Shown: piece after piece, positions 23,954 through 29,240 of the stretch | Position numbering within the stretch: the stretch's first letter is position 1 | Layout of the letters: every line of letters starts with the position of its first letter | Origin: Desulfatitalea tepidiphila | GTDB lineage: Bacteria; Desulfobacterota; Desulfobacteria; Desulfobacterales; Desulfosarcinaceae | Length of the DNA stretch: 64,000 nt | Direction of reading: 5' to 3' | Assembly (NCBI RefSeq): GCF_001293685.1 | Contig: NZ_BCAG01000001.1 | Coordinates: 558,001 to 622,000, forward strand | The notes under the pieces: model-generated | What the model was told of the DNA's origin: nothing | What the model saw: the letters and a program-made list of their open reading frames with translations, nothing else | The model's database searches: none | Position numbers and translations under genes: made by a program

Positions 23954-24283
23954 CTATTTGCCCGCGTCCTTCTGCGCCTTGAGGTGGTCGACGATGGTCT
24001 GCATGTAGTCGCGCATGTCGATGGCCAGCCGCCGGCACTCTTCACAGTAAACCTTCCGGAACATATAGCCGTGGGCCTCGTTCTGGTGGCGGAACCATGC
24101 GATGTATGGGGTCTCCTTGCAGAACTTCTTCCCGCTGTAGGCGGCGATGGGGCAGCCGGAACAGACCAGCATGTAGAAGATGCGGCACGGCGGGCAATCG
24201 AGCACCCCGCCATCGGATCCCTTGCCTTCGATGATGCGGTTCCATTTGCGCACGGATGCTTCCATGATCGAGATCTTATCCAT
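23954..24283 (-). CDS. Small Cys-rich protein of unknown function
   Basis: 109-residue soluble protein. Seven cysteines lie at residues 30, 33, 41, 44, 55, 80 and 83, arranged as CPPC, CSGC, KKFC and CEEC, which suggests a metal or Fe-S site. Aromatic residues around PYIAWFRHQNEAHGYMFRKV separate the groups. The start at 24283 has AAGGCAGG upstream; it overlaps the end of the Usp-deacetylase gene by 8 bases, and the membrane protein follows after 4 bp, so the three are probably one transcript. I do not recognise a named family. Confidence 0.65.
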   Translation of the reverse strand: MDKISIMEASVRKWNRIIEGKGSDGGVLDCPPCRIFYMLVCSGCPIAAYSGKKFCKETPYIAWFRHQNEAHGYMFRKVYCEECRRLAIDMRDYMQTIVDHLKAQKDAGK

Positions 24284-26294
24284 GATCATCCTGCCTTTCG
24301 CGGTTGACTTCCGATTCATTCAAACAGGACCAGTAGCGTTTCATCACTTCGGTACAGCGGTAAATGCTGGGTTCGACTTTTCGTCGCTTGAACCTGGCGG
24401 CCACCTGGTTGACGTCGCAGTGCGTGCGGTCGCAAAGTTCTTCCAGGACGGCCCTGACCGAATCGGCCAGGGACTGCCGGTGATAGCCGCCTTCCAGTAC
24501 CAGGACCAGGCGGCCCTGGCAGCAGGCGTCGCTGATCTGCATGACGATGCGCGTCAGGGCCGCGAATCCCTGGGCGGTGAGCTTCATGCCGCCCAAAGGG
24601 TCTTTTTTATGGATGTCGAACCCGGCGGCCACCAGAATCAGATCCGGTTTGAAGTCATGGGCGATCGGTGCGAGCAGCCGTTTGTAAAGATGCGCGACCT
24701 CTCCATCGCCCAATCCTTTGCGCAGGGGGACATTGATGGTGTAGCCTTCTCCGCGGCCGCGTCCCACCTCCAACAGGTGACCGGTTCCAGGAAACAGCGG
24801 ATATTGGTGGGTCGAGAAGTAGAGTACCGAAGGGTCGTGTTCGAAGATATGCTGGATGCCGTTGCCGTGATGCAGGTCCCAATCCACGATGAGCACCTTG
24901 TCCATTCCCAGTTTTTCACGGGCATAGCGGGCGCCGACGGCCACGTTGTTGAACAGGCAGTACCCGTTGGCGCGGCCGGCCTCGGCATGATGGCCGGGCG
25001 GTCGCGCCAGGACAAAGGCATTGCGGATTTGCCCGGCAACGACGGCGTCGATGGCCGCAATGACGCCACCGGCGGCCATCGACGCGACCGCGAAAGAGGC
25101 GGCGCAGGCGTAGGTGTCCGGGGTCAACTGGGTATGGTCGTGTCGGGCCGTGGCCTCGATCTGGTGCACATAGGCCGCCGAGTGGACACGTATGAGGTCT
25201 TCTTCGGTTGCCGGGCGTGGCGGGATGCGTACCAGGGACAAGGCAGGCTCGAGACGGTCCAGCATTGCGTAAACGGCTTCCAGGCGGTGGTGGTTCTCCG
25301 CGTGTTCGGTTTCGCAGCGGTGCGCCAGGTAGAAGGGATCCCGGACCACGCCGGTCGGCGGTCGGGGGGCGACAGCCTCCTGGGCGGCTGCTTTCGTCAC
25401 GAACGGAACAGGGACGGTGAGCACATGACAGGGGGCCTTGCGCAACAAGATCTCGGTGGTCGAGCCGACGATCAACTTGCCGATGGCACTGTGGTGGCGC
25501 ACACCGACCACCACCAGATCGACGTTGCCGCCGCGCACCCTGTCGAGCAGCTCATCCTGGGCCGGACCGGTGGCCAGATGGGTGCTCACGGCCACCTCCG
25601 ACACGATCTCGTCCCGCGCCATGCGCTTCAGTTGTTCATCAATCTGCTGCTGGAGCTGCGATTGCACCTGGCCGTAGGGACCGGTCGCCGGATCGATCAT
25701 ATCCACATGAACAGGGGATTCGATGGCATGCAGCACTTTCACCGAGGCTCCCAGGGCGTGTGCCAGGCGGCCGCCCCAACGAATCAAGGGGAGGTGATCC
25801 GGCGACAAGTCGCAACACACCCCGATCCGGCCGATCTTGTCGGGACCGCGGCCGGCGGGTCGCAATATCAGCACGGGGCAGGTCACAAGGCGCACCAGCC
25901 GTTCGACCACGGTGCCCAGAAAGAGACGTTTCAAGCGCGTGATGCCCAGGCTGCCGGCCACGATCAGGTCAATGGGATGTCCACGGCAATAGTCGACGAC
26001 CGCTTCGACCGGATCACCGGAGACGATTGCAACTTGCATGGAAACCGTCGACGGCGGCATCAGCGCTGCGATGGCGGTTTCGCATTGGGCTCGCCGCGCC
26101 TGAAGGTCACCGCTGCGTTCGAATTCGGTGGTGGGATGGAGCGGGTCCGATGGCACGTGGATGGCATGCAACAGGCGCAGCCCGGCCCCTGTGCGCTGCG
26201 CCAGGCGGGCCGACCAGTCGATCAACGCCTTTGCGGCCGGAGAGAAATCGACCATGCAGAGGATGGAGCGGATGCTCGGGTTTGGGGCGCCCAT
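24276..26294 (-). CDS. UspA-UspA-histone deacetylase fusion protein
   Basis: 672-residue three-domain protein. Residues 1-146 and 153-297 are two universal stress protein domains, each with the ATP-binding GxxG-x9-G(S/T) pattern (GSLGITRLKRLFLGT and GVRHHSAIGKLIVGS). Residues 316-640 form an arginase-fold histone deacetylase/AcuC-type domain: His435-His436 in PPGHHAE, zinc ligands Asp473, His475 and Asp560 (DWDLHH, GFDIH), and catalytic Tyr604 (EGGYH). All catalytic residues are intact, so it should be an active zinc deacetylase of lysine or an acetylated small molecule. The Usp domains may sense ATP or stress. It is 73 bp from aroB on the same strand and overlaps the next gene. Confidence 0.88.
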   Translation of the reverse strand: MGAPNPSIRSILCMVDFSPAAKALIDWSARLAQRTGAGLRLLHAIHVPSDPLHPTTEFERSGDLQARRAQCETAIAALMPPSTVSMQVAIVSGDPVEAVVDYCRGHPIDLIVAGSLGITRLKRLFLGTVVERLVRLVTCPVLILRPAGRGPDKIGRIGVCCDLSPDHLPLIRWGGRLAHALGASVKVLHAIESPVHVDMIDPATGPYGQVQSQLQQQIDEQLKRMARDEIVSEVAVSTHLATGPAQDELLDRVRGGNVDLVVVGVRHHSAIGKLIVGSTTEILLRKAPCHVLTVPVPFVTKAAAQEAVAPRPPTGVVRDPFYLAHRCETEHAENHHRLEAVYAMLDRLEPALSLVRIPPRPATEEDLIRVHSAAYVHQIEATARHDHTQLTPDTYACAASFAVASMAAGGVIAAIDAVVAGQIRNAFVLARPPGHHAEAGRANGYCLFNNVAVGARYAREKLGMDKVLIVDWDLHHGNGIQHIFEHDPSVLYFSTHQYPLFPGTGHLLEVGRGRGEGYTINVPLRKGLGDGEVAHLYKRLLAPIAHDFKPDLILVAAGFDIHKKDPLGGMKLTAQGFAALTRIVMQISDACCQGRLVLVLEGGYHRQSLADSVRAVLEELCDRTHCDVNQVAARFKRRKVEPSIYRCTEVMKRYWSCLNESEVNRERQDDHG

Positions 26295-26367: not shown

Positions 26368-27387
26368 TCAGCGCAGCCATTTTTCCAATTCATCCAGCCC
26401 CACCGTCTCCACCACCGCCTTTCCGATGGTTTCGAGCAGCACGAAGTGCAGCCGGGTCTGTTCGCGCTTTTTGTCTTTCTTCAAGGCTTCGAATACGGCC
26501 CGGCGGTCGAAATCCAGGGCCACTGGCAGGTCCAATCGCCCGAGCAGGGTCTTGATGCGTTCCAGGTGGGTCGGGGCCAGCAATCCTTTTTGAACGGAAA
26601 GTTCGGCCGCCTGGACCATGCCGGCGCTGACCGCCGCGCCATGGGAGATGCCCAGGGTCTTTTCAAAAGCGTGGCCGAGGGTGTGGCCGAAGTTGAGTTT
26701 GCGGCGCTCGCCCGCCTCGCGCTCGTCCTGGTTGACCACGGCGGCCTTGATGCGTACCGAGCCGTCCACCAGGTGCAACAGGGTGGGGTGGTCCATGCGG
26801 GCGATGGCGTCGCAGTGGGACTCGATGAAATCGAAATAGGCGGCGTCGGCGATGCAGCCGTGCTTGACGATTTCGGCCAGGCCGCAGGCGATCTCTTCGG
26901 GCGGCAGGGTGTCGAGCAGGGCGATGTCGGCCAGGACGAATTCGGGTTGGTTGAAGACGCCCACCATGTTTTTGTAGCCCTTGAAGTTGACGCCGTTTTT
27001 GCCGCCCACGGTGGCGTCCACCTGGGCCAGCAGGCTGGTGGGCACGAAGCCGAAGCGCAGTCCGCGCATGTAGGTCGAGGCGGCGAAACCGGTCACGTCC
27101 CCCACGATGCCGCCGCCGATGCCCACGATGAAGCTGCTGCGGTCGGCTTCCGCATCGATGAGCCGTTCATAGATCATAGCGAGGGTGTCCAGGGTCTTGT
27201 GCTGCTCCCCGCAGCCGATGGTGATGACGTCGCCTCGGGGGAAACGCTTGCCGTAGAGGGCGCCGACCGTTTCGTCGGTAATGATGATGGTGCGGCCATC
27301 GGGCAGGTAGTTTGCCAGGTTGTCAAACGTTTCGCCGACCAGCACCCGTGAGCGTCCGCTTTGCCCTTGGATCAGGATTTCGTGCAT
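26368..27387 (-). CDS. aroB: 3-dehydroquinate synthase
   Basis: 339-residue enzyme for step 2 of the shikimate pathway, converting DAHP to 3-dehydroquinate with NAD and a metal. Family motifs are present: GIGGGIVGDVTGFAAS, LAQVDATVGGKNGVN, the metal ligand region CGLAEIVKHG, and NFGHTLGHAFE. The start is 3 bp after the aroF stop codon, so it is co-translated with aroF and shares its attenuator. Normal length, no damage. Confidence 0.95.
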   Translation of the reverse strand: MHEILIQGQSGRSRVLVGETFDNLANYLPDGRTIIITDETVGALYGKRFPRGDVITIGCGEQHKTLDTLAMIYERLIDAEADRSSFIVGIGGGIVGDVTGFAASTYMRGLRFGFVPTSLLAQVDATVGGKNGVNFKGYKNMVGVFNQPEFVLADIALLDTLPPEEIACGLAEIVKHGCIADAAYFDFIESHCDAIARMDHPTLLHLVDGSVRIKAAVVNQDEREAGERRKLNFGHTLGHAFEKTLGISHGAAVSAGMVQAAELSVQKGLLAPTHLERIKTLLGRLDLPVALDFDRRAVFEALKKDKKREQTRLHFVLLETIGKAVVETVGLDELEKWLR

Positions 27388-27390
27388 GGA

Positions 27391-28401
<1,011 letters not shown>

Positions 28402-28448
28402 GAATCTTCCTCCTTCACCTTGCCGGACCCATGGCATCCTCCCACTTC

Positions 28449-28484
28449 AAAAAAAAAGACCGTGGGCGGTTCGTGCCCACGGTC
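28449..28484 (-). terminator. Intrinsic terminator of the aroF leader (attenuator 3:4 hairpin)
   Basis: On the minus strand a perfect 10-bp stem, GACCGTGGGC / GCCCACGGTC, with a 7-base loop is followed directly by nine U. It lies between the leader peptide stop and aroF, so it can end transcription before aroF. Its left arm GTGGGCA can instead pair with TGCCCAC inside the leader peptide coding sequence (28524-28530), forming an antiterminator. Confidence 0.85.
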
Positions 28485-28515
28485 CGGAAATCTGAGTTGT
28501 CGGGATCGACACCGG

Positions 28516-28599
28516 TCAACCGGTGGGCAAAGTGCGCCACAGCGCAAAGCGCCACCAATTTCCCCCGATCCGACCGTTTGCTTTTTTCCCGAATGCCAT
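28516..28599 (-). CDS. Trp-rich leader peptide of aroF-aroB attenuator
   Basis: 27-codon open frame beginning 15 bases after the predicted transcription start, with GAGG seven bases before its ATG. The peptide reads MAFGKKANGRIGG, NWWRFALW, RTLPTG. Three Trp codons include a tandem UGGUGG (28552-28557) plus two Phe codons, far above chance in 27 codons. The tandem Trp codons (GGUGG) can pair with CCACC near the stop codon, which in turn pairs with the left arm of the terminator: the 1:2, 2:3, 3:4 layout of trp attenuators. Ribosome stalling at Trp codons would favour the antiterminator; reaching the stop would mask segment 2 and allow termination. Confidence 0.8.
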   Translation of the reverse strand: MAFGKKANGRIGGNWWRFALWRTLPTG

Positions 28600-28621
28600 T
28601 GTTTACCTCGAATTGAAAGGG

Positions 28622-28650
28622 ATAAGAGCACTGTGTCCGATTTTTGTCAA
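28622..28650 (-). promoter_or_regulatory. Sigma-70 promoter of aroF leader
   Basis: On the minus strand TTGACA (28645-28650) and TCTTAT (28622-28627) are separated by exactly 17 bp. The predicted start near 28614 places the leader peptide ATG 15 bases into the transcript. Confidence 0.7.
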
Positions 28651-28781: not shown

Positions 28782-29240
28782 ATGCATTGTAATTTCAATG
28801 GAAAAATCAAATCGTGGTGCATCGCGGCGGTCATCGGGCTAATGGTTTTGTCGGCGGGCAGCGCCCTGGCCGATAGAAACGCGGTGGTTCGAATCACCAG
28901 TCCGGTGTATGATAGCAATCATGCGGTCGGAGATAATATCTATCTGACATGCAGTGTCAAAGATTCTGCCGGCGCCGATGTGAGCGGACTGGAGCTGATC
29001 TGGATTTCGAACCTGGATGGACGCATCGGTACGGGAAGGAGCGTGACCACGAACAAATTGAGCACGGGGATTCACCTCATCACACTCAATGCCACCAATG
29101 GCGCCGGCGCGGCCGTCGGATCGGACGCCATTAAAATCAAGGTGAGTTATGTCAACAAAAACCAGGATACCGAATCAACCGGAGTCGTCGACATCGACAA
29201 CACCGGCGGGGAAGGATACGTCGTCAACCCCATGTTCTAG
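28782..29240 (+). CDS. Secreted Ig-like domain protein
   Basis: 152-residue protein with a signal peptide (residues 1-30, SAGSALADR) and then one beta-sandwich Ig-like domain of about 95 residues (VVRITSPVYDSNHAVGDNIY, SGLELIWISNLDGRIGTG, HLITLNATNGAGAAVGSD). Such domains are common in surface and cell-envelope proteins and suggest binding or a structural role; nothing identifies a partner. The ATG follows AAGGAG by seven bases. It is divergent from aroF. The C-terminal tail (residues 125-152) is Asp/Asn-rich without structure. Confidence 0.75.
   Translation: MHCNFNGKIKSWCIAAVIGLMVLSAGSALADRNAVVRITSPVYDSNHAVGDNIYLTCSVKDSAGADVSGLELIWISNLDGRIGTGRSVTTNKLSTGIHLITLNATNGAGAAVGSDAIKIKVSYVNKNQDTESTGVVDIDNTGGEGYVVNPMF

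Follow-up and report, generated by a model that had tools for sequence, protein, structure and literature searches.

The closest described relatives of the element analysed here are the leaders of trp operons. The E. coli trp leader (trpL; Rfam RF00513) shares with it a short open reading frame (ORF) containing tandem Trp codons, alternative antiterminator and terminator structures, and an intrinsic terminator before the operon, and the trp leaders of Corynebacterium and Streptomyces, as presented in the available part of PMC1262725, have the same architecture. Those leaders control trp genes, whereas the leader described here, which scores below the RF00513 cut-off, would control genes for DAHP synthase and 3-dehydroquinate synthase.

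Leaders have also been described upstream of DAHP synthase genes. The AroR leader of the aroF operon of C. glutamicum contains Phe-Tyr-Phe and is associated with enhancement under Phe limitation (Neshat 2014, as cited in the accessible part of PMC11802643); like the leader proposed here, it places a DAHP synthase gene under ribosome-mediated attenuation; it relies on Phe and Tyr residues, however, and occurs in another phylum. The uORFC-13-1 motif, for which the accessible sections of PMC8632094 give 24 representatives from Acholeplasma and environmental sequences only, likewise combines a predicted uORF with a terminator before aroF, but its codons are for Phe. Attenuation by Tyr has been hypothesised for E. 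coli aroF (PMC8632094 and PMC2659441, both in their available parts). For Shewanella, PMC2659441 lists, among predicted RNA elements, an attenuator of aroF that senses Tyr-tRNA and mentions "possible transcription termination" for aroH, which encodes the Trp-sensitive DAHP synthase; the portion of that paper at hand, which concerns gammaproteobacteria, gives no Trp-codon leader for aroH. Merino's database, as represented in the accessible Table 7 of PMC1173090, contains putative attenuators near tyrA and before aromatic operons, including one before aroA'>aroB'>aroQ-pheA>aroF>tyrA>[trp operon] in Desulfovibrio vulgaris and others at the aroAIbeta operons of Thermus and Enterococcus. These have in common with our locus a predicted terminator/antiterminator before an aromatic operon, and they differ in that the available part of the source names no leader peptide or sensed amino acid, shows other gene orders, and covers tyrA operons only. 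Transcription of a DAHP synthase isozyme that is regulated specifically by tryptophan is itself known from the action of TrpR on E. coli aroH (available part of PMC5343134), and the comparative study reported there found TrpR and TyrR to be conserved among gammaproteobacteria but missing from other classes. In the literature surveyed, which excluded key older comparative papers and most subscription papers, we found no DAHP synthase gene with a Trp leader.

A Trp-rich leader precedes aroF and aroB

The DNA analysed (the window) is a stretch of 64,000 nucleotides from Desulfatitalea tepidiphila (contig NZ_BCAG01000001.1, positions 558,001 to 622,000), and positions are counted from its first letter unless a genome and contig are given. 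The features of the leader and of the genes that it precedes are collected in Table 1. The start of aroF is the ATG at 28401 (MLIVMD, preceded by the Shine-Dalgarno sequence AAGGAGG), which is conserved in relatives, and the ATG at 28437 was rejected on that ground. aroB lies directly downstream of aroF in 22 of the 47 distinct loci with enough flanking sequence (54 loci given), and therefore aroF is the constant target. A further minus-strand gene (24276-26294) starts ~74 nt after aroB and is possibly part of the same operon; its product contains, according to Pfam, two universal stress protein stretches and, after them, a histone deacetylase-like domain. Upstream of the leader, the minus-strand entries in the ORF list of the window are all mechanical (one of them, 81 codons long, overlaps the leader), the plus strand has a divergent ORF (28782-29240), and no likely minus-strand gene was seen there. 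The product of the divergent ORF (152 aa) looks signal-like at its N-terminus by eye and matched nothing in Pfam.

Table 1. Positions of the aroF leader, the genes it precedes and related leaders. Positions are those of the window unless a genome (G) and contig (C) are given; L numbers denote loci.
Feature	Position	Strand	Evidence or remark
-35 hexamer TTGACA	28645..28650	(-)	sequence; TTGACA upstream of 70/80 relatives' leaders tested
-10-like hexamer TCTTAT, spacer 17 nt	28622..28627	(-)	sequence; same place in genus members by eye
Shine-Dalgarno-like GAGGT of leader ORF	28605..28609	(-)	sequence; GAGGT shared by several genus relatives' leaders, by eye
Leader peptide ORF MAFGKKANGRIGGNWWRFALWRTLPTG, 27 codons + TGA	28516..28599	(-)	translation; Trp-rich ORFs at same place in relatives
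Tandem regulatory Trp codons 15-16 (TGGTGG)	28552..28557	(-)	within strand 1 (28558-28552); sequence and folding
Third Trp codon (codon 21)	28537..28539	(-)	sequence; stall there without antiterminator in folding model
Strand 2 UGCCCACCGGU	28519..28529	(-)	folding; covariation with strand 3
Strand 3 GGACCGUGGGCA, terminator 5' arm and antiterminator 3' arm	28474..28485	(-)	folding; partner-swap test
Strand 4, terminator 3' arm	28458..28468	(-)	terminator scan and folding
U9 tract	28449..28457	(-)	sequence
aroF, DAHP synthase with N-terminal ferredoxin-like domain	27391..28401	(-)	NCBIfam TIGR01361 and NF006421 above cut-off; Pfam PF00793, PF18152
aroB, 3-dehydroquinate synthase	26368..27387	(-)	NCBIfam TIGR01357 above cut-off; 3 nt after aroF
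trpE operon with Trp leader and terminator (L118)	G000:C1:622467-622494		just beyond the window's right end
Second DAHP synthase upstream (L002)	G000:C5:61932-65927		upstream of ORF at 1513; Phe-rich leader and terminator
Divergent aroF/trpE loci	L012, L023, L126, L128/L259, L132/L271, L138, L140, L145, L150, L178		
Phe-leader loci	L002, L028, L032, L225-L232, L235, L239-L241		

A preliminary description of this DNA, made from its letters, had proposed a promoter, a ribosome-binding site, a 27-codon peptide with tandem Trp codons and a third Trp, and a U9 terminator before aroF. The promoter can be read directly from the sequence (TTGACA-17 bp-TCTTAT). It was absent from a promoter scan of the window because TCTTAT lacks A at position 2, and the scan gave two other minus-strand sites further upstream (28960 and 28699). 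The leader promoter is position-conserved: an exact TTGACA lies 30-190 nt before the first Trp codon in 70 of 80 leaders, compared with 85 of 1600 shuffles (the leaders were 80 of the 81 found in the order, as described below, the remaining one being too short). The ribosome site (GAGGT) and the peptide were also confirmed in the sequence, with the ATG at 28599, the TGA at 28518-28516 and Trp at codons 15, 16 and 21. The terminator stands before aroF as proposed, but its stem (28485-28457, with U9 at 28457-28449), which was picked up independently by a terminator scan, has 11 pairs rather than 10. Strand 2, which codes for the C-terminal LPTG of the peptide and abuts the stop codon, can take either strand 1 or strand 3 as its partner.

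E. coli aroH uses a DNA-binding repressor, TrpR, whereas the TrpR family (PF01371) was found in 0 of the 11 genomes of the Desulfatitalea genus (2 of 14 control genomes matched), and TRAP (PF02081) was found in none of the same 11, the Bacillus subtilis control matching. No Rfam family reached its gathering cut-off anywhere in the window, and so no T-box leader or other riboswitch was recognised at that threshold. The RF00513 Trp_leader model aligned over all of its length (positions 1-100 of 100), at the correct place and on the correct strand, with 19.3 bits against a cut-off of 41 (E 0.27); at E <=10 the matches in the leader region were SdsR_RyeB, SraC_RyeA, suhB, Trp_leader, ffh and sX14, none of which reached its cut-off.

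The leader recurs across the order and beyond

Relatives of aroF were collected in a search of the family Desulfosarcinaceae, where 29 of 30 genomes matched at E 0.001, and in a search of the order Desulfobacterales, where 164 of 241 genomes matched at E 1e-60. The order set comprised 124 regions upstream of orthologues, from which 4 shorter than 300 nt were dropped to leave 120; partial matches at contig ends (e.g. L027 and L029) and more distant paralogues lie outside it. We scored a leader wherever an ORF 10-60 codons long contained WW or WxW and was followed by a hairpin-T terminator. Such a combination was present in 81 of the 120 aroF upstream regions and in 11 of 1200 dinucleotide shuffles; these shuffle controls cover the Trp leaders of the order, and the Phe leaders, trpE leaders and phylum set discussed below were counted without shuffles. 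Among the other 39 regions, L005-L007, L158, L182 and L219 still have Trp-rich ORFs, and some, including L009 from the same genus, have no recognisable leader. Within the genus, an aroF orthologue was found in 9 of 11 genomes and a Trp leader in 8 of those 9, although the tandem arrangement of the Trp codons is not strictly kept, as L005, L006 and L007 have spaced Trp codons only.

A phylum-wide sample of 297 genomes contained 156 with an aroF match at E 1e-100, and 60 upstream regions were taken from outside the order. The same combination of ORF and terminator was found in 18 of the 58 that could be placed; two of these (L291 and L336) look chance-like by eye, and the remaining 16 belong to families f96, f143, f129, f112 and f99. 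Leaders were also inspected among the 80 named loci, a survey that left out L049-L112 except L051. Clustered Trp codons are present in L033, L035, L036, L039 and L040 (the last from Syntrophobacteraceae) and spaced ones in L051, and a Trp leader was not recognised in L034, L037, L041 or L042-L048; L038 is cut too short to judge. In L036, L039, L040, L129 and L130, two tandem terminators lie between the Trp leader and aroF. The alignment of related leaders that had been suggested as a check thus bears out the proposal, since Trp clusters and alternative stems are kept in leaders from across the order and also in several families that lie outside it but within the phylum.

Strands 2 and 3 covary

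Covariation was assessed by a swap test, in which the pairing energy of each strand 2 with its own strand 3 was compared with its energy with all other strand 3s after removal of row and column means. Dereplication by 6-mer overlap reduced 76 leaders to 48 representatives, and then to 46 after L022 and L135 were dropped as mis-assigned; the terminator hairpins first assigned in L015, L022 and L135 in the 76-leader test were, by eye, the wrong hairpins. For the 46 leaders, the own-partner gain for 2:3 was 1.71 kcal/mol, a value reached in 0 of 20000 permutations, which leave some shared ancestry in; it had been 2.19 kcal/mol before L022 and L135 were dropped and strand 2 was limited to the stop-codon region. 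Decoy pairings of the same 46 leaders were null (2:4, 8446 of 20000; 2:reversed-3, 9196 of 20000). The own-partner gain for 3:4 was 7.39 kcal/mol (0 of 20000; 48 representatives, with L022 and L135 included), and that for 1:2 was weak (0.74 kcal/mol; 409 of 20000).

The covariation can be followed in individual leaders: in the window, strand 3 GGACCGTGGGCAC pairs with strand 2 TTGCCCACCGGTTG, and the corresponding partners are GGCTGCAGGC and ACCTGTAGCA for L211 and CAAGGCTGCACC and CGTGCAGCCTTT for L223. Measured against shuffled versions of strand 2, the signal of a single leader is modest, with a mean z of -1.64 for 2:3 (49 of 76 leaders below -1 and 23 below -2) and of -0.75 for 1:2 (31 of 76 below -1 and 8 below -2). 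Among the nine closest leaders, 92.9% of cells were paired for 3:4 and 81.1% for 2:3, compared with at most 53.5% and 52.2%, respectively, in slid versions of the alignment; this alignment contains no pair changed on both sides and is therefore uninformative on covariation. Across the order, then, the swap test supports the covarying 2:3 and 3:4 stems expected from the preliminary description.

Similar residues recur at the C-termini of the peptides of relatives (LPTG, MPAG, CACRIP and GCADRF, by eye). Together with the richness of the peptide in Trp, this recurrence would suit an arrest of the TnaC type, in which the leader would sense free tryptophan through the nascent peptide in the ribosome and not through codon starvation. 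The C-terminal codons, however, make up strand 2, whose pairing with strand 3 can explain the likeness: LPTG, MPAG and GCADRF recur while the remainder of the peptide differs between families (by eye), as can be expected if strand 2 encodes the last residues. Arrest of this kind would moreover bring about read-through on Trp excess, which is the wrong sign for a biosynthetic gene, and we consider it very improbable.

In a folding model, the alternative folds depend on where the ribosome stands

The three helices proposed for the leader RNA all form in the window sequence, although each is larger than described. The pairing of UGCCCAC with GUGGGCA exists within a helix of 10 pairs around a bulged C (UGCCCA-C-CGGU with ACCG-UGGGCA; -18.2 kcal/mol), and that of GGUGG with CCACC extends further, to 11 pairs in the fold (-14.0 kcal/mol for the isolated pieces); the terminator has an energy of -22.3 kcal/mol. 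The claim that the terminator and the 2:3 helix share one arm holds in the folding, strand 3 serving as both the 5' arm of the terminator and the 3' arm of the antiterminator.

In stepwise folding with no ribosome, 1:2 forms first and 3:4 follows. The ribosome was modelled as covering 15 nt from the A site. When the A site is occupied by Trp15 or Trp16, 2:3 appears once strand 3 emerges, and while strand 4 is partly out, the model gives 10 pairs of 2:3 and zero of 3:4. When it is occupied by Trp21, half of strand 2 is covered, the terminator wins and the antiterminator was not obtained; with the ribosome at the stop codon, 3:4 alone forms. Under a 15-nt footprint, therefore, the geometry of an attenuator holds for codons 15 and 16 and for the stop codon, and fails for codon 21. 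When the complete leader is folded at equilibrium, the terminator is preferred at every ribosome position tried, including Trp15/16. Since the terminator is the equilibrium fold of the full leader, antitermination and read-through must be kinetic. Kinetic read-through is the usual view of trp attenuation too.

These findings are consistent with the following model. When Trp-tRNA is ample, the ribosome would reach the stop codon and cover strand 2, leaving strands 3 and 4 to make the terminator, so that transcription would stop before aroF. Under a shortage of Trp-tRNA, the ribosome would stall at codons 15/16 over strand 1, strand 2 would take the emerging strand 3, and RNA polymerase would read through. 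Were the leader not translated, 1:2 and 3:4 would form and transcription would end.

One genome carries tryptophan and phenylalanine leaders

The trpE gene of the same genome (C1:622658) lies outside the window, past its right end, ~36 kb from aroF; it is on the opposite strand and divergent from aroF. The trpE operon has a similar Trp leader of its own (WWWRW), ending ...NIRGWWWRWCLCACGALPTD, and the terminator arm of this leader is much like that of aroF. In the whole genome (5.6-Mb assembly), the pattern GACCGTGGGCN{2,14}CACGGTC occurs in the aroF and trpE leaders only. An earlier statement that the attenuator sits on aroF-aroB rather than on trp genes is thus right about its position, but the trp operon of this genome is similarly equipped. 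A Trp-cluster ORF was found in 37 of 40 trpE upstream regions (10 from the genus and 30 from the order; a terminator was not required and no shuffle control was made).

In at least 10 genomes, counting those noticed and not as a systematic survey, aroF and trpE lie next to each other in divergent orientation, and elsewhere they lie on different contigs or far apart. The arrangement follows from coordinates in G029, G033, G049, G059, G096, G103 and G135, where the genes are ~0.6-0.9 kb apart by match ends, and from loci holding both genes in G025 (L023), G130 (L138) and G237 (L126). Two Trp attenuators can therefore stand back to back: Trp-cluster ORFs are clear on both sides in L012, L023, L126 and L128, the one on the trpE side is weak in L138 and L140, and in L132 the trpE side alone shows one. 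In L040 and G091 (L265), aroF lies immediately upstream of trpE and on the same strand; in L040 the Trp leader heads the aroF-trpE pair, as it would in a common aroF-trpE operon. In L248 (G163), the gene divergent to trpE encodes a DAHP synthase that is fused to a long C-terminal part and is not the aroF orthologue.

The second DAHP synthase of the genome is 51% identical and is fused to prephenate dehydratase and an ACT domain. Upstream of it is a Phe-rich leader, FFSGCFFFSFR (FFSGCFFFSFRSIHP type), and a Phe leader with a terminator was present in all 15 placeable upstream regions of the 23 tried (no shuffle control). Judged by sequence, then, the genome holds a set of three putative amino-acid leaders, with Trp codons before aroF, Trp codons before trpE, and Phe codons before the second DAHP synthase.

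The Phe leader also bears on whether the aroF leader might be a general sensor of translation speed, in which any slowing of the leader ribosome, and not tryptophan specifically, would relieve termination. Any stall over strand 1 would indeed free strand 2, and the spaced Trp codons of L005-L007 would be compatible with such a sensor. Trp clusters nevertheless recur across families just upstream of strand 2 (Trp alone was scored), and the presence of Phe in place of Trp in the leader of the paralogous DAHP synthase argues for amino-acid specificity; a general speed sensor thus has very little chance of being the right explanation.

Discussion

The aroF leader is real, and its interpretation as an attenuator is very probably right. 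In all likelihood it is a classical ribosome-mediated transcription attenuator that senses charged tRNA-Trp and controls aroF and aroB, its logic of alternative 2:3 and 3:4 pairing being supported by homologous leaders, by 2:3 covariation and by stepwise folding. The analysis shows the parts of the leader, their conservation, the covariation of 2:3 and of 3:4, and the folding logic; translation of the leader, stalling, the response to tryptophan and actual read-through are inferred. That the terminator is constitutive or insulating, with the Trp-rich ORF incidental, has next to no probability: its great stability (-22.3 kcal/mol) and its place as the equilibrium fold of the complete leader at all ribosome positions tried would fit a constitutive terminator, but Trp-cluster ORFs with terminators occur far above shuffles, strand 2 covaries with the terminator arm, and no likely minus-strand gene was seen just upstream.

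The mechanism of this attenuator is classical, of the trp leader type. What look new are the genes that it targets, how widely it occurs in Desulfobacterota, and the arrangement with two isozymes. There is about an even chance that these Desulfobacterota divide the first step of aromatic synthesis between two DAHP synthases with an amino-acid-specific attenuator each, aroF(-aroB) having a Trp leader and the prephenate dehydratase fusion a Phe leader, so that RNA alone does the job of TrpR and TyrR in E. coli, and that the aroF leader is a sister of the trp leader, once back to back with it between divergent aroF and trpE. Such an arrangement predicts that the two DAHP synthases would respond to Trp and to Phe separately. 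The dozens of diverged leaders with compensatory changes are a natural set for testing models of attenuation, and across a large bacterial group, a textbook device of the trp operon very probably sits on the first enzyme of the shared aromatic pathway.
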